Below, piece after piece: positions 16,974 to 24,530 of a stretch of DNA of 24,530 nt. This DNA comes from a virus. The notes under the pieces are model-generated. The model made no database searches and had not been told where the DNA came from. It saw nothing but the letters and a program-made list of their open reading frames with translations. How positions within the stretch are numbered: the stretch's first letter is position 1; the number at the start of each line of letters is the position of its first letter. The position numbers and the translations under genes are program-made. Where the stretch lies: positions 1-24,530 of IMG/VR virus record IMGVR_UViG_3300021598_000033, one strand, 5' to 3'.

Positions 16974-17468
16974 TTAATACCTCGTCATTAGTAAGTAATC
17001 CACCTTGTCAGGGCCATACATCTTTAAAACCGCTTCGGTCTCAAACCTTAATGCTTTCGCATAACGTATTGCCCGAATATCGTCAGTTCTAACAGTTATT
17101 TGCAATCTATGCAAGTTGAGATATCTGGTTGCGATATCTACAAAGGATCTGCCACATCTGAGCATGGATGCTGGGTGTTCTCTAGCCTGATTATCAAAGA
17201 TGCTCCACATCTCGCCAACTCCACCCCAAAAGAATACAACTCCAAAGATGGCTATCGGTTTATTGCGGTAGAAAGCGGTAACCGCTGCGCCAAGCATAGA
17301 TTGGCTGTATATCATGGATCTGAGGTCATATCCTCTAGCCACAGCCAACAGCTCTGGCTGGGTGGTATCGAGCTGGTCAAAGTGGTCAATAACGAATGGC
17401 AGATAGAACACCCCTCTCTTGGGATGCATCTCCTCGTTTAATACCTCGTAGGGTATAGTCACTTTCAT
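16974..17468 (-). CDS. T7 gp13-like protein with GNAT-like fold, 164 aa
   Basis: Core 'AFYRNKPIAIFGVVFFWGGV' then GEMWSIFDNQAREHP, RSFVDIATRYLNLHRLQITV and DDIRAIRYAKALRFETEAVL fits the gp13 (internal virion protein A) family, which has an acetyltransferase-like fold: a beta pair with G..W, a long helix, and the 'N..airy.k.lGFe.e' strand-helix end. In T7, gp13 is needed for infectious particles. Here it directly follows terL (ATGA overlap), not the other internal proteins. A conserved acetyl-CoA P-loop is not obvious, so catalysis is doubtful. Confidence 0.7.
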   Translation of the reverse strand: MKVTIPYEVLNEEMHPKRGVFYLPFVIDHFDQLDTTQPELLAVARGYDLRSMIYSQSMLGAAVTAFYRNKPIAIFGVVFFWGGVGEMWSIFDNQAREHPASMLRCGRSFVDIATRYLNLHRLQITVRTDDIRAIRYAKALRFETEAVLKMYGPDKVDYLLMTRY

Positions 17469-19024
17469 CTTGAGAATATATCAAAGTCGCTGTTAGCCAC
17501 AGTCTGGGCTACATATGTTCTTGATGACACGTCTCCTGGGCGAGTCATCCGCTTGTATTCACCGCCACCGAGCAAGAGATATCCAAAGGCATCACCAACG
17601 TGGGAGTGTTCGTTTTTATTTGGGCTATCCCTAAACCGCTCCTGACCAGAGCCGACTGATACCCGCTTGAAATGGTAGCCACCCGCCAGAGACTTGCGTA
17701 GTAGCTTACATTTGCTGTCAACCATCAGCCCCGGCTTGCCGTTAATAAGACGTTGCATGGGCGCAGCAGCGGATTCTCTGCGAACCTTGAAGTCGTTTGA
17801 TGGGGTTGGCTGTGCCTTGAGGCCAAGAGTCCTTAAAAAGTCAAAGGCCGTTACCTCATAGATCGCATCTCTAGCCATACCAGCTGGATCGCCCCACACC
17901 AATACTTGCATTCCTGGGTACTTTGCGTTGATTTCAGCCACGAGTTGGTGGCCAAAGCGCTCTAATCCCATGTCAAAGGTAACAATCTCGTCAATTACTT
18001 GCCACCTACCACTAGGCAACCTCTGCCCAATCACCGCAGCTGGGGTTAAACCAAAGTCAAGACCAATCTGGATCGGCACAGAGTTGTCTAAAATTGTCTC
18101 TCCAGACATGATGTTATCGTCATATTCTGGCCAAACCGACTTGCCCTCTTGGACATAGGTATATTTGCCCTCTGCGTAGCATCTGATCCAATCTAGATTC
18201 TTACCCAAGAGCATCTGCTGATAGTAGCCAGCCGGTAGATTGGCTACGTTTTCAGCCTTCTTGTTTAACTGCCACCACTTACCCGCTGAGAAGATGCAGT
18301 CATTGGCCTCTGGGTTTTCGGGCAGATCGTCTTTGCCGACTTCAATAACCCCGCCAGGTTGCTTGTAAAACTTCCAAGCATATGGTCCCGTCATCTTTTC
18401 TTTCTCGGCCATCCTAAACCACCAATGGTCATCATCCATTGGGTTGGTATCCATCCAGATGCCATGCCAACTAGCGCCACCATCTCGCTTGGTAGGGTAT
18501 CTACCTACTCGGTGTGTAAGGCCATCAATTACAGCCTTGGGCAACTCTCGTGCCTCGTTAACCCATGCCCCTGTTAGCTCTAGGGATAATAGCTTTCTAA
18601 CGTCTTTCGGTTGGTCAAGCGCTAAGAAGATTACCTCGCAATCGAGACCCGCAGCTCCATCCCTTGCCGGTAGTCGGATGTGGTGGGTAATCGGTGGTGT
18701 ATAGAGCATTGGCCCAAAAGTATTCTCTGGGAAAAGGTCTTGCCACGTCTTAATTGTGGTTGTCTTGAGTTCAGGATAGCTATTGCGTACAATGACAAAA
18801 CGGGTATATCGGACACCATCGATAGGGGAGGGCTTTTGCTGAATGGCTCTGATGAACACCTCAGCAGCGCAAGCATAGGACTTGCCAGACCCTACTGGAC
18901 CCATCATCCCACGCACGAATGCATTGCTCGTTAGGAACTTATAAACCTCTGGGGATTTGGAAAAATCTAAGCTAATACCAGTAGTCGGTATCTGCTTACT
19001 TGACATCTCTTTTGTTTTAGCCAT
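17465..19024 (-). CDS. terL: Terminase large subunit, 519 aa
   Basis: DNA-packaging motor with ATPase and nuclease. Visible motifs: Walker A GPVGSGKS (42-49); Walker B and catalytic glutamate region LTGAWVNEARELP (150-162); motif III-like MDTNP (191-195); nuclease acidic residues in GLDFG (D323), WGDPAG (D379) and HVGDAFGY (D478). Both domains are complete, and the length is typical. The gene diverges from the plus-strand phosphoesterase gene; its ATG at 19024 lies 57 bp from that gene's start. Its stop overlaps the next gene (ATGA). It would act with the probable small subunit encoded at 21012-21434, 2 kb away. Confidence 0.95.
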   Translation of the reverse strand: MAKTKEMSSKQIPTTGISLDFSKSPEVYKFLTSNAFVRGMMGPVGSGKSYACAAEVFIRAIQQKPSPIDGVRYTRFVIVRNSYPELKTTTIKTWQDLFPENTFGPMLYTPPITHHIRLPARDGAAGLDCEVIFLALDQPKDVRKLLSLELTGAWVNEARELPKAVIDGLTHRVGRYPTKRDGGASWHGIWMDTNPMDDDHWWFRMAEKEKMTGPYAWKFYKQPGGVIEVGKDDLPENPEANDCIFSAGKWWQLNKKAENVANLPAGYYQQMLLGKNLDWIRCYAEGKYTYVQEGKSVWPEYDDNIMSGETILDNSVPIQIGLDFGLTPAAVIGQRLPSGRWQVIDEIVTFDMGLERFGHQLVAEINAKYPGMQVLVWGDPAGMARDAIYEVTAFDFLRTLGLKAQPTPSNDFKVRRESAAAPMQRLINGKPGLMVDSKCKLLRKSLAGGYHFKRVSVGSGQERFRDSPNKNEHSHVGDAFGYLLLGGGEYKRMTRPGDVSSRTYVAQTVANSDFDIFSR

Positions 19025-19080
19025 TGATTTTTAACACTTTTCAGTTAATATAAGCTAACTTTATCATTATAAGGTATGTC
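19025..19080. promoter_or_regulatory. Divergent gap, possible back-to-back promoters
   Basis: This AT-rich 56-bp gap is the only divergent gene junction in the window, so it or the adjacent coding ends must hold the plus-strand promoter. On the minus strand TATAAT and TATATT boxes can be read, and on the plus strand TTATAA, but no good -35 box is placed correctly for any of them. AAGGT 5 bp before the plus-strand ATG is a ribosome site. Confidence 0.35.
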
Positions 19081-20040
19081 ATGGTACGAAAAGCGTGTAG
19101 TGACGAAGAATTTATTGCGGCTTGGAAAGAACACCAATCCCCTGAAAAGGTAAGTTTGGCTATTGGTCTTAGCAATCGCAATGTTATGAAGAGGCGCAGA
19201 ATAATAGAAAATAAATATGGCATTATTCTAGAGGCTCTGTCACCCTCTGGCCAGCCTAAGATTTATATTCCCGATGAGCAGATGCAAGCTAACGTCACCA
19301 TCGACAATGGTGTCATCTTAGTTGGCTCTGATTGCCACTACAACCCAGAGTACGTTACGACAGCTCACCGAGGCTTTGTCCAATTTGTAAAGTATCTGAA
19401 ACCAAAGATTGTCATTCTCAATGGAGATATTGCGGATTTCGCTAGTATCTCAGCGCATCACCGCATTGGCTGGCAGAAAGGCCCCACAGTCAAAGAAGAG
19501 CTAGATGAGATTCAGGCAAGGCTTGGAGATATTGAGGCTGTGCGCCCAGCTGGTTGCAAATTGATGATTACGATTGGGAATCATGATTTAAGATTCTCAG
19601 GCAAGCTGTCTAACATCCTCCCACAGTACGAGGGCATCAAGGGTTTTGATATTGCTGACCACACAATTCATTGGAAATGGTACTGGTCTATCATGGTCAA
19701 CCAGACTTGCATGATTAAACACCGCTGGCATAACGGAATCCATGCGGTCTACAACAATACGATGAAGTCAGGCACGAGCTTTGTCTCTGGCCACCTACAC
19801 TCGCTCAAGATAACCCCTTGGACAGACTACACCGGCACACGATATGGGGTAGATACTGGAACGATGGCCTGTATTAAGGACAGCCAGTTCAGCTATACCG
19901 AGAACAACCCGGTCAACTGGAGAGCTGGATACGCAGTATTGACCTTTATCAACGGCAAACTCATGCCCCCAGAGCTGGCAGAGGTTATCAATGAGGATGA
20001 GGGTCTAATTTATTTTCGTGGTCAATTAATGAAAGTATGA
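19081..20040 (+). CDS. HTH + calcineurin-like metallophosphoesterase, 319 aa
   Basis: Residues 8-50 (FIAAWKEHQSPEKVSLAIGL, then RNVMKRRRIIENKYGI) read as a helix-turn-helix of the type 'f...w....sp..vA..lGls.r.v.~RRr.iE...gi'. From about 78 it is a calcineurin-like phosphoesterase with all main metal ligands: GSDCH (D84, H86), NGDIADF (D116), GNHD (166-169), RWH (H217) and SGHLH (236-240). It could hydrolyse phosphodiester or phosphomonoester bonds in nucleic acid or nucleotides; the HTH suggests DNA as target. It is on the opposite strand to all phage structural genes and coupled to the SprT-like gene by ATGA. Substrate unknown. Confidence 0.85.
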   Translation: MVRKACSDEEFIAAWKEHQSPEKVSLAIGLSNRNVMKRRRIIENKYGIILEALSPSGQPKIYIPDEQMQANVTIDNGVILVGSDCHYNPEYVTTAHRGFVQFVKYLKPKIVILNGDIADFASISAHHRIGWQKGPTVKEELDEIQARLGDIEAVRPAGCKLMITIGNHDLRFSGKLSNILPQYEGIKGFDIADHTIHWKWYWSIMVNQTCMIKHRWHNGIHAVYNNTMKSGTSFVSGHLHSLKITPWTDYTGTRYGVDTGTMACIKDSQFSYTENNPVNWRAGYAVLTFINGKLMPPELAEVINEDEGLIYFRGQLMKV

Positions 20041-20396
20041 TCCAGCTCACATCCACCATTCTCAAGAATATGTACACCATGCTTGTGGTGTGTAAGCCTT
20101 TTGATAATTGGAATATGCCTCTACCAGAGCAGATAAAGTTCATCGTGGATCACGATCCCGATACGATGGGAACGTACCTCTATGATGATGGAGCTGACAA
20201 GTATGAACACGTCATTACTATCTCAGCTGCTCGTTGTGGCTGGCTCGAAACCTGTATCCGTACCATGGCACACGAGATGATTCACGCTAGTCGGTGGAAT
20301 ACCTCCACAGCTGCATGGCAGAAACACGATAAGACATTCCGACACAGAGCCAAGATGGTAGCGGATGAGCTAGGATTTGATCCACTAGAGTTATAA
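20037..20396 (+). CDS. SprT-like zinc metalloprotease, 119 aa
   Basis: Contains HEMIH (79-83), the HExxH zinc-binding and catalytic motif, followed by HDKTFRHRAKMVADELGF with a further candidate ligand (H97), as in SprT/Spartan-type peptidases. The C-terminal zinc ribbon found in many SprT proteins is absent, so this is a minimal protease domain. Cellular relatives cleave proteins crosslinked to DNA; phage copies are common but unassigned. Start overlaps the phosphoesterase stop (ATGA), so the two are translated together and probably work in one process. Confidence 0.78.
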   Translation: MIQLTSTILKNMYTMLVVCKPFDNWNMPLPEQIKFIVDHDPDTMGTYLYDDGADKYEHVITISAARCGWLETCIRTMAHEMIHASRWNTSTAAWQKHDKTFRHRAKMVADELGFDPLEL

Positions 20397-20472: not shown

Positions 20473-20619
20473 TTATTTAGTGGCTAATATGTAAAGCCCT
20501 ACATTGCTAAACGCATAGCCACTATATACCACCGCCATAGGCACGTTACCCTTTAGTCCTTGCTCTACAGCTATGTAGCCATAAATCAGACCTGTAACGA
20601 TAATCAGCCAAGAACTCAT
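20473..20619 (-). CDS. Small two-helix membrane protein, 48 aa
   Basis: Translation starts MSSWLIIVTGLIYGYIAVEQ, continues GLKGNVPMAVVYSGYAFSNV and ends GLYILATK. Two hydrophobic segments (about 3-18 and 28-45) are joined by a short polar EQGLKGN turn, which predicts a helical hairpin in the inner membrane. Very similar small 'W..i..G..Y...A.eq...Gn..mA..y.gYa..N.gly' proteins are, from memory, frequent in phages, without known function. Coupled to the upstream 22-codon ORF (ATGA). A holin is possible but the sequence lacks the usual charged tail, and no endolysin is nearby. Confidence 0.6.
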   Translation of the reverse strand: MSSWLIIVTGLIYGYIAVEQGLKGNVPMAVVYSGYAFSNVGLYILATK

Positions 20620-21011: not shown

Positions 21012-21434
21012 TTATTTTATTTCGATGTCTTCAATATCGGGTGGCTTGATATTGATGCCGATAACCGATGGCTTATCTGAATCCTCTGGGCTATCCAGTA
21101 ATCCAGAGGCTTTGGCTAGTAGGCGCAGCACTCCAACCTTGTCGTACAGCTCTAACTCTAGGTTACCATCCTTATTAACCTTAATACTGCGGATGGCTTG
21201 TAGAGCGTGTTCGGGAATATCCTTAGATGCCTTGACTTGGATCTTGCCCTGGTCATCCCACTCCATAATATCCGTAATCTTGGTGTTGGCCATACAGAGT
21301 AGGCTATAAGCCACCGCCTCCTTGTTCTCCATAATGGTAGCGGAGCGCTCTAACCTCTTCTGTATAGACCGAATCCCACCCCAGTTCTGCATGGAGGGGA
21401 TCTGCGTACTTAGATTTGACTTAACTCTAGCCAT
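21012..21434 (-). CDS. Probable terminase small subunit, 140 aa
   Basis: The C-terminal half has the arrangement IPEHALQAIRSIKVNKDGNL then ELELYDKVGVLRLLAKASGL, which fits the 'lP....~aI.~ik.t.~G.~~i.l.dK..AL~lLak~.Gl~' end of phage small terminases. The N-terminal part (LSTQIPSMQNWGGIRSIQKR) is basic and helical, and MENKEAVAYSLLCMANTKIT may oligomerise. Small subunits recognise the packaging site and hand DNA to TerL; here terL is 2 kb downstream with the opposite-strand cassette between them. Start overlaps the upstream stop (TGATG). The N-terminal HTH is not clear, so this is a fairly sure but unproven call. Confidence 0.6.
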   Translation of the reverse strand: MARVKSNLSTQIPSMQNWGGIRSIQKRLERSATIMENKEAVAYSLLCMANTKITDIMEWDDQGKIQVKASKDIPEHALQAIRSIKVNKDGNLELELYDKVGVLRLLAKASGLLDSPEDSDKPSVIGINIKPPDIEDIEIK

Positions 21435-23106: not shown

Positions 23107-23597
23107 TGCTCTTGCTTTCTCTTCCAGATATCTAACATGGCTGCGTACAACTTAGCATAGCCAGCCTCGCCACGCACCCTTGCCACTTCCTTGAGGTACA
23201 GTTGCCGAGTTCGCTTGGATCTAAACTTTCGAAAGACCCATTTGGCCTCACAGTACACCCTAAACTCGTCTGAATAGGATCCAACCGCTCTGCCATTCGG
23301 CAGATGAACCAGCCTTGATGTTGGGTGAACCTTACGACAAGCGAAACAGATGGGTCGTAATACATTTATTTGCTCTCCCTCTCTGTCTTCCTTCGGTAAC
23401 AATCCTTGCACATCCACCGCCTGACTCTGGTAACAATCCTTGCACATCCACCGCCTGACTCTGCCCTTTGCGCTTACTTTCCAATTGCCACCTTCTATAT
23501 GTACGCTGTATTGACAATTACTGCACCAGCGCTTGCCAGTAATACTAGACTCAGCCTGTACAGCCTTTGTGTATACGTCTTTATCGTGTGTACCCAT
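23103..23597 (-). CDS. Double zinc-ribbon protein, possibly a duplication-made fusion, 164 aa
   Basis: The N-terminal ribbon has KRWCSNCQ (C25, C28) and RRWMCKDC (C52, C55), a standard CxxC-CxxC site. The second part has RPICFACRKVHPTSR (C84, C87) and C116, then a basic helical end KFRSKRTRQLYLKEVARVRG. Between them, residues 57-68 (QSQAVDVQGLLP) are an out-of-frame reading of a 34-bp duplicate. Without one copy the first ribbon would end after YRRKTERESK at 65 aa, and the second part would be a separate frame with GTG or TTG starts. The start overlaps the methyltransferase stop by 17 bp. Likely a nucleic-acid-binding accessory protein; not an HNH enzyme, since no H-N-H residues are seen. Confidence 0.55.
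   Translation of the reverse strand: MGTHDKDVYTKAVQAESSITGKRWCSNCQYSVHIEGGNWKVSAKGRVRRWMCKDCYQSQAVDVQGLLPKEDREGEQINVLRPICFACRKVHPTSRLVHLPNGRAVGSYSDEFRVYCEAKWVFRKFRSKRTRQLYLKEVARVRGEAGYAKLYAAMLDIWKRKQEQ
23395..23462. repeat. Exact 34-bp tandem duplication
   Basis: 23395-23428 and 23429-23462 are identical, with no spacer. The unit length is 3n+1, so it changes the reading frame within the zinc-ribbon gene. There are only two copies and no spacers, so this is not a CRISPR. Confidence 0.9.
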
Positions 23598-24530
23598 GCT
23601 CTAGCCTGTTTATTCGTTCACCAATCCATCGCATCACCGGCACAGCCATTGAGTTGCCCATTGCTTTGTATCTTGGGCCATCTGGGCAGTTCTCTCTAAT
23701 GTTTGTGTAGTTATCAGGAAATCCTTGCAATCTTTCGCACTCAACTGGTGTCAGTCTGCGGACAGCCATGTTATGCATTGTTGCTGGAGTTTTGCTTTTA
23801 TCCAATGTGGGGCTTATTGTATCCATAGACATACTTTGCGATGGTGAATTTTGCCAACCAAAGGCAACTGAGTGACGGCTTGACGTATCCAAAGTATTCA
23901 TTGGATCACCAGGATGTCCAACACCTAAACCATTGCCTTTGCCATCGTTATTTCTGCTGTTGCCGCCCCCCTTGAATTGTGTAGCCTGTGCGTGAATTGG
24001 TATGGCCAATGCACCTACGATAAATGTTTCTGAGCCACCGCTTAGGACTCCTCCACTTGCTTTGGTTGTTCCGGCAATGACATCTTCACGATATTGTCCA
24101 AAGCTGCTTTCAACATAGCCGGCAACACTTTGCCTCGTCTTTCTGCTCGGTTTAGGATTCCCTGACAGGCTCTCGGACTCAAATAATACTTCTGCGGGAG
24201 GTCTCCAGTCTCCAAGATATCCGACAACAAAGACTCTTCTACGTCTTTGTGGTACTCCAAAGTATTGAGCGTCAAGCACCCGATATGAGAACCCATACCC
24301 GCATTCGGCCACCGCTCCGAGAAAGGAACCAAAATCCCTTCCACCGCCTGAACTGAGGACACCCGGCACGTTTTCCCATATGAACCACTTGGGTCTAAAC
24401 TTGTCAAGAATTCCAACATAGGTAAGGGCAAGGTTTCCTCTTGGGTCTTCGAGTCCTTTTCTGAGTCCAGCAACTGAGAATGATTGGCATGGGGTTCCTC
24501 CAACCAAAAGTCCAACTGTGTCATTGATAT
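23581..24530 (-). CDS. C5 cytosine-specific DNA methyltransferase, N-terminus cut by window edge
   Basis: The frame is open to the window end, reading INDTVGLLVGGTPCQSFSVA. The catalytic cysteine lies in PCQSFS, followed by ENVPG (motif VI), FGVPQRRRRVFVVG (motif VIII), VRRLTPVECERLQGFPDNYT (motif IX) and KAMGNSMAVPVM (motif X). The S-adenosylmethionine-binding motif I lies outside. The variable region between VIII and IX (about 115 to 245 from the TTG at 24507) is rich in G, S and N and sets the target site, which I cannot predict. Such phage enzymes modify the phage genome to escape host restriction. A TTG at 24507 is not the true start. Everything visible of the enzyme is intact. Confidence 0.92.
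   Translation of the reverse strand, partial: INDTVGLLVGGTPCQSFSVAGLRKGLEDPRGNLALTYVGILDKFRPKWFIWENVPGVLSSGGGRDFGSFLGAVAECGYGFSYRVLDAQYFGVPQRRRRVFVVGYLGDWRPPAEVLFESESLSGNPKPSRKTRQSVAGYVESSFGQYREDVIAGTTKASGGVLSGGSETFIVGALAIPIHAQATQFKGGGNSRNNDGKGNGLGVGHPGDPMNTLDTSSRHSVAFGWQNSPSQSMSMDTISPTLDKSKTPATMHNMAVRRLTPVECERLQGFPDNYTNIRENCPDGPRYKAMGNSMAVPVMRWIGERINRLEHGYTR
24042..24524 (-). CDS. 160-codon overlapping ORF inside the methyltransferase gene
   Basis: Same strand as the methyltransferase but another frame. Starts MTQLDFWLEEPHANHSQLLD (ATG), then GSYGKTCRVSSVQAVEGILV, PNAGMGSHIGCLTLNTLEYH and LSDILETGDLPQKYYLSPRA with CQGILNRAERRGKVLPAMLK. The second half reads like folded protein, and from memory very similar 'kYyLSpkA..GILrRAekRGk.LP' and 'GrTsp' sequences are annotated in many phages. 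HANHS is the shifted reading of the methylase PCQSFS codons, so part of the similarity follows from the overlap. May be a real overprinted gene or a recurrent by-product of conserved methylase codons. Upstream ribosome site is outside the window. Confidence 0.35.
   Translation of the reverse strand: MTQLDFWLEEPHANHSQLLDSEKDSKTQEETLPLPMLEFLTSLDPSGSYGKTCRVSSVQAVEGILVPFSERWPNAGMGSHIGCLTLNTLEYHKDVEESLLSDILETGDLPQKYYLSPRACQGILNRAERRGKVLPAMLKAALDNIVKMSLPEQPKQVEES

Follow-up and report, generated by a model that had tools for sequence, protein, structure and literature searches.

A metallophosphoesterase gene coupled to a small protease gene in phages, with unrelated proteases exchanged in one slot

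The window, meaning the whole 24.5-kb stretch of DNA analysed here, is a fragmentary virus record in which all plausible genes except two lie on the minus strand. The sole plus-strand genes encode a metallophosphoesterase (MPE) and a SprT-like protease (Table 1), and we infer that the two are translationally coupled through the ATGA at which they overlap. A preliminary description had placed two such coupled reading frames between the terminase subunits; both the frames and their position were recovered, with TerL to the left and TerS to the right. Two minus-strand ORFs, one small and membrane-type and the other of 82 aa, separate the pair from TerS. Relatives of the membrane-type protein occur in 164 of the 319 loci then collected, at distances from the MPE gene that vary so widely that this ORF was rejected as a third part of the module and left out of the unit. 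At the right end of the window, the record stops short and truncates a C5 cytosine methyltransferase domain. Judged by TerL, the nearest isolate is Methylophilales phage MEP301 (77% identity), and this match suggests that the host of the window's phage may be a methylotroph related to Methylophilales.

Table 1. Features of the window at and around the metallophosphoesterase–protease pair.
Feature	Position	Strand	Remarks
TerL, terminase large subunit	17465-19024	-	phrog_2, 3.9e-20; directly left of the pair
Conserved core CTAACTTTATCA	19055-19066	+	inside a promoter-like site, 19038-19067
MPE gene	19081-20040	+	319 aa; HTH-like segment and calcineurin-like metallophosphoesterase domain
HTH-like N-terminal segment of MPE	19102-19218	+	residues 8-46; the linker after it is variable and of low confidence
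ATGA stop-start overlap	20037-20040	+	SprT ATG overlaps MPE TGA
SprT-like gene	20037-20396	+	119 aa; minimal zinc protease, catalytic core only
HEMIH zinc-binding/catalytic motif	20271-20285	+	SprT residues 79-83
Small membrane-type protein	20473-20619	-	48 aa; downstream of the pair
TerS, terminase small subunit	21012-21434	-	PF03592, 26.8 bits (cut-off 26.1)
C5 cytosine methyltransferase domain	23581-24507	-	cut by the record end

The window MPE matches phrog_221, annotated 'metallo-phosphoesterase' (1e-28), over residues 72–303, which correspond to the catalytic domain. Its score against Pfam PF00149, 20.8 bits, falls slightly below the cut-off of 21.5, which is exceeded by the relatives L001, L002 and L103. 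The metallophosphoesterase site had been read as complete, and the metal motifs DxH, GD, GNH, H and GHxH are indeed all found in the window protein. They are invariant in 31 representatives, and a regular expression finds them intact in 402 of the 407 unique relatives of full length. The AlphaFold2 model (pLDDT 84.3) contains N-terminal helices at residues 8–18, 21–28 and 32–46, with a pLDDT below 50 in the linker at residues 57–66. The three helices favour the helix-turn-helix (HTH) proposed earlier, but the window protein itself hit none of the HTH families, and weak HTH matches were obtained in a few of 28 relatives; the assignment therefore stays at 'likely'.

The closest folds to the MPE model are the archaeal PolD DP1 exonuclease (Z 14.5, 209 residues), LpxH and YfcE (both Z 14.3), with VPS29 and Mre11 (13.4) also near the top. 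As these leaders tie within about 1 Z, the fold does not name a substrate. A search of solved structures by sequence with the MPE profile found nothing. In one public genome (MW202713), the MPE gene of L006 (5291–6529) is mislabelled 'archeal DNA polymerase iI'.

The SprT-like protein scores 27 bits against PF10263, over the cut-off of 25.6, and matched no other family in that scan. The best match to its model (pLDDT 92.9), obtained with a second-look aligner, is human Spartan (6mdx; Z 11.2, 104 residues, 2.6 Å), followed by selecase and other minimal zincins (Z ≤ 9.4) and by yeast Wss1 (Z 7.8). Foldseek returned no match under E 0.001 for this model, and among the sequences of solved structures the SprT profile found only Spartan (E 0.017 and 0.019). 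Residues His79, Glu80 and His83 are invariant in 36 representatives, and the third zinc histidine, His97 in HDKTF, is conserved in at least 90%. HExxH plus HxxxF is intact in 229 of 231 full-length SprT partners. With PF10263 over its cut-off and the zinc ligands conserved, the HEMIH-type SprT protease core noted earlier stands. The core fold and zinc ligands are common to Spartan (SPRTN) and Wss1, both of which carry accessory domains outside the SprT core. In contrast, no accessory DNA- or partner-binding domain is present in the window protein, where the core fills residues 1–119, and neither Spartan nor Wss1 has a counterpart of the partner MPE.

In seven comparisons, dN was far below dS for the MPE gene (0.006–0.072 versus 0.18–1.13) and for the SprT-like gene (0.011–0.052 versus 0.30–1.0), so these are not chance ORFs. 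An unannotated SprT gene is present at L001 5966–6310 in the public phage genome MW202674. The SprT-like protein encoded at L040 6957–7310 looks mosaic by eye, with an N-terminal part like that of the window and a C-terminal part like that of L052.

The pair was surveyed in viral contigs, genome contigs and annotated phages; the viral contigs were scanned with the MPEs of the window, L001, L002, L330 and L323 and with SprT proteins. The counts are samples, made up of the best 80 loci per search. MPE matches above 150 bits were kept, giving 501 loci, or 425 unique loci after exact MPE-DNA duplicates were collapsed. Matches below 150 bits were excluded from the partner counts, whereby the L313-type MPEs were lost. 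The window cluster (L338) and the seven clusters of a main pairing clade, which form separate branches on the MPE tree, hold 271 unique loci. Five of these lie too near a contig end, leaving 266 that could be evaluated.

Among the matches listed, a protease gene adjoins the MPE gene in 261 of these 266 loci, and the preliminary description's proposal of a conserved pair is thus upheld; co-occurrence is not rare. These 261 listed proteases comprise 244 SprT-like proteins, 16 proteasome-like PPH proteins and one other HExxH protein. The SprT-like gene is directly downstream of the MPE gene in 243 of the 266 and directly upstream in one, and the 16 PPH genes are downstream, again among the matches listed. 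The ATGA overlap (−3 offset) occurs in 228 of 286 listed loci with a SprT-like gene downstream, duplicates included, and no fusion of the two genes was found in the collected loci. Five of the 266 listed MPEs have no adjoining protease. In the exceptions that were read, duplicates included, a GNAT acetyltransferase holds the protease slot in L151 (6966–7400) and L379 (downstream of the MPE), nothing was called in L333, L373 and L374, and in L114 an HNH gene is inserted after the MPE gene with SprT beyond it.

SprT pairing occurs on two tree-separated MPE branches, the main clade and that of the window. Among the matches listed, the remaining MPE branches hold 149 unique loci that could be evaluated, and 113 of these have no adjoining protease; of the rest, 33 have a HECLH-family HExxH protein upstream, two have a PPH and one has another HExxH protein. 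It follows that the MPE can work without a protease beside it, and that an adjoining protease is typical of two MPE branches, not of the whole family. Apart from the motif, the HECLH family bears little resemblance to SprT (hhalign 15%). Acetyltransferase, lysozyme and spanin-like genes recur next to the MPEs of these other branches, with a GNAT acetyltransferase upstream of the MPE in 35 of their unique loci among the matches listed.

The PPH partners match phrog_1040, 'peptidase HslV family' (3.5e-25 and 1.9e-27), and BPH (2.1e-5). Residues T2, D16 and K32 are invariant in nine aligned members and were recovered by regular expression in 17 of 17. The partner that replaces SprT fits the PPH of phages and hosts, described as having ~140 residues and a Thr/Asp/Lys triad (PMC8665760). 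Profile comparison shows no relationship between SprT and PPH (hhalign 0.3%). In the sampled records, some of which are fragments, SprT and PPH are mutually exclusive and were never seen together. None of 22 PPH-bearing records contains SprT, and the same SprT profile matches 15 of 18 long records; those 15 have no PPH, and the remaining three have PPH and no SprT. All 18 hold a single match to phrog_221. Fuchs et al. 2021 (PMC8665760) report no mutually exclusive proteasome homologues and nowhere use the word phosphoesterase, whereas here PPH excludes SprT beside the MPE.

On a tree of 92 MPEs, from which five long-branch rows (L004, L334, L003, L327 and L474) were left out, the PPH-bearing rows are scattered, giving seven changes, of which at least six are forced by strongly supported branches. 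As PPH is placed at least six to seven times on this tree, proteases without kinship to each other have taken turns next to one MPE. The DNA of L400 and L407 is alike as far as ~7 nt beyond the MPE stop codon, diverges across the partner gene and becomes similar again after it. The phage collection yielded no match to the L407 PPH; the L330 PPH gave 34 distant records, and three of these (L539–L541) were read and have no MPE in the stretch examined. Of 369 genomes from one bacterial class, one carries the MPE family and one carries PPH; both are therefore mainly virus genes.

The MPE is also exchanged. At the same site, beside TerL proteins 83–91% identical to that of the window, ten loci carry MPEs 40–45% identical, with SprT or PPH. 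SprT proteins 81–90% identical to the window's occur with MPEs that are ~38–45% identical, and MPEs that are ~90% identical occur with SprT proteins 47–97% identical. The unit thus persists while its parts change. L142 and L347, considered as an MPE exchange under one promoter, were ruled out because their MPEs are 88% identical.

The MPE–protease pair is a conserved, coupled unit with intact active sites and purifying selection on both genes. The repeated replacement of its protease by an unrelated one suggests that MPE and protease do one job together, and this strengthens the phosphoesterase-plus-protease function suggested in the preliminary description, whose DNA–protein adduct chemistry is drawn from fold and analogy. 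Tentatively, we favour joint action of MPE and protease on protein-bound DNA. In such a two-gene module of virulent phages, many of them from freshwater, a DNA-binding-type MPE and a small protease would be made together. The MPE, most likely a nuclease by family precedent, would cut DNA, and the protease would remove protein from, or degrade protein bound to, the same DNA. Protein-blocked or nucleoprotein DNA would thereby be taken apart.

Nuclease activity of the MPE is suggested by three precedents: Gp48 of cluster A mycobacteriophage A10ZJ24, an MPE of an 'exonuclease' PHROG beside SprT, and a DEDD-type exonuclease. Gp48 is reported to degrade DNA in vitro, to disrupt host DNA and to have a counter-defence role (PMC12287305). 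The link to the cluster A MPEs runs through the SWU1 protein, not Gp48. It belongs to the same phrog_221 (2.7e-111), and the MPE family profile matches it along its whole length (hhalign 99%, E 3.3e-18). The SWU1 protein differs in having 255 aa and no N-terminal segment, and its neighbours are an annotated phosphofructokinase and a hypothetical protein, with no annotated protease beside it. D29 Gp66 is reported to act on cAMP and on mono- and diesters, and Bxb1 Gp47 to lack phosphoesterase activity (PMC12287305); homologues of the MPE therefore differ. The second precedent is the MPE of L006, which belongs to phrog_284, 'exonuclease', and is paired with a SprT of a second group. The DEDD-type exonuclease, which has a zinc ribbon, is found, again with second-group SprT, in L005 (6301–7038) where L313 (7332–8036) has an MPE, within related SprT–lysozyme cassettes.

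The MPE nuclease fold is also common to SbcCD and Mre11–Rad50, with Mre11 among the tied structural matches, and Mre11-type complexes are reported to process protein-blocked DNA (PMC9240642). A Rad50/SbcC-type ATPase (PF13476) was found in none of 18 records, the window included and several of them fragments, and the control was positive in 14 of 14 genomes; an SbcCD-like complex was rejected for want of this ATPase partner in the 18 records.

Action on protein-bound DNA is suggested by the Spartan-type fold and by analogy with animal cells, where SPRTN and the proteasome are described as two alternative DNA–protein crosslink proteases (PMC8674535, PMC11098752). It speaks against this reading that the phage SprT and PPH proteins are without DNA-binding or unfoldase domains and that the activity of PPH is a predicted one. 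The module would likely be used to dismantle host nucleoprotein or to clear blocked DNA during infection, rather than in packaging. It probably serves host takeover, repair of phage DNA being the alternative; host takeover fits the SprT-like gp83 of mycobacteriophage LHTSCC, reported to be toxic, bactericidal and filamenting (PMC7474061).

A bolder version, argued by analogy, is a viral DNA–protein-adduct machine in which one MPE nuclease would work with whichever protease is present, Spartan-like or proteasome-like; we regard it as doubtful. If it were true, phages would have reached, in two genes, the pair of alternative DNA–protein crosslink proteases of animal cells, and PPH, so far without an assigned function, would be a DNA–protein adduct protease. 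Should both enzymes act on protein-bound DNA, phages would own a two-part tool for such DNA. Both enzyme families are known; what appears to be new is the unit, with unrelated proteases exchanged in one slot, and such a repeated swap is unusual. The pairing gives a testable function to the SprT-like and PPH phage proteases and to the linked MPE. No description of an MPE–SprT or MPE–HslV/PPH unit was found in the literature searched, which consisted mostly of open-access papers, preprints excluded; one paper mentioning a phage metallophosphoesterase and SprT lists both as separate genes.

The same two proteins could instead form a protease-controlled enzyme, in which the protease would cut the linker that joins the HTH-like segment to the MPE domain and so switch the phosphoesterase on or off. 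ImmA/IrrE proteases, which act on an adjacent HTH repressor, provide the model. The linker is variable and of low confidence in the structural model, the protease gene is tightly coupled to that of an HTH-bearing protein, and the HECLH partner family matches M78, weakly (E 0.095). A switch of this kind could be served by any protease, which fits the exchange between SprT, PPH and the other zincin. However, L313-type phages keep SprT with a 234-aa MPE that is without the N-terminal segment, a proteasome-like partner would be an odd site-specific activator, and many HTH-bearing MPEs have no adjoining protease. On these grounds a protease switch appears unlikely.

A counter-defence pair, in which the MPE would destroy a signal or defence nucleic acid and the protease would remove defence proteins, so that the two share a use and have separate substrates, was likewise judged unlikely; it and the protease switch are the principal rivals of the favoured reading. 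The counter-defence nuclease Gp48 of cluster A (PMC12287305) and the proposal that jumbo-phage SprT-like proteins cut host proteins (PMC7824862) speak for such a pair, and the exchange of parts would suit an arms race. An arms race would not, however, need the coupling seen in 261 of 266 loci among the matches listed, and both genes are under purifying selection. PADLOC, run on six module proteins, gave no defence-system match, and a known defence system was rejected; as evidence against counter-defence this is weak, since the same would be expected of phage genes.

MPE or SprT genes lie among holin, lysozyme, M15 and spanin-like genes in L002, L003, L006, L024, L283 and L313. The setting is similar in pelagiphage Baldr and in MEP301, which has a 235-aa MPE beside M15 peptidase and holin genes. 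The pair might accordingly be a late or lysis-linked helper that breaks down host DNA and protein late in infection, recycling building blocks or easing release. This seems improbable, as the pair also lies among replication and recombination genes and often runs against its surroundings with an upstream element of its own. Among the matches listed, both flanking genes were called in 216 loci, and the pair is opposed to both in 151; the window cluster contributes 49 of its 59 loci and the main clade 102 of its 157. The upstream element, a 12-base core (CTAACTTTATCA), is found with at most one mismatch 25–27 nt before the MPE start in 81 unique loci among the matches listed. These belong to three MPE clusters, and controls gave 3 of 7642 stretches. 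The promoter-like match that overlaps the core is weak alone, because seven were found against 4.1 expected by chance.

Placement varies and parts are exchanged, as would be expected of mere cargo, an accessory pair carried together without a joint function. This is very improbable, given that the protease slot stays filled through the exchange (261 of 266, among the matches listed) and that SprT and PPH exclude each other over whole records. A link to packaging, raised in the preliminary description, is unsupported; relatives carry the pair at varied places, an outcome which that description itself named as counting against such a link. In the window's lineage the pair is flanked by TerS and TerL, and a window-type TerL adjoins it in 43 unique loci, but no such TerL is found beside the pair in 196 unique loci from the same MPE clusters whose upstream sequence extends for 400 nt or more (both counts among the matches listed), and TerS and TerL of the closest isolate, MEP301, have no pair between them; packaging was thus rejected as the general function, and a packaging helper of terminase is the least probable reading of all. 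Elsewhere, the neighbours of the pair include RusA, VRR-NUC/Hjc-like or other Holliday junction resolvases, a Q-like activator, a giant late gene and lysis genes. In several phages the giant late gene (~1970 aa; L183 3–5921) directly precedes the pair, and that of L183 matches only PHROGs of unknown function.
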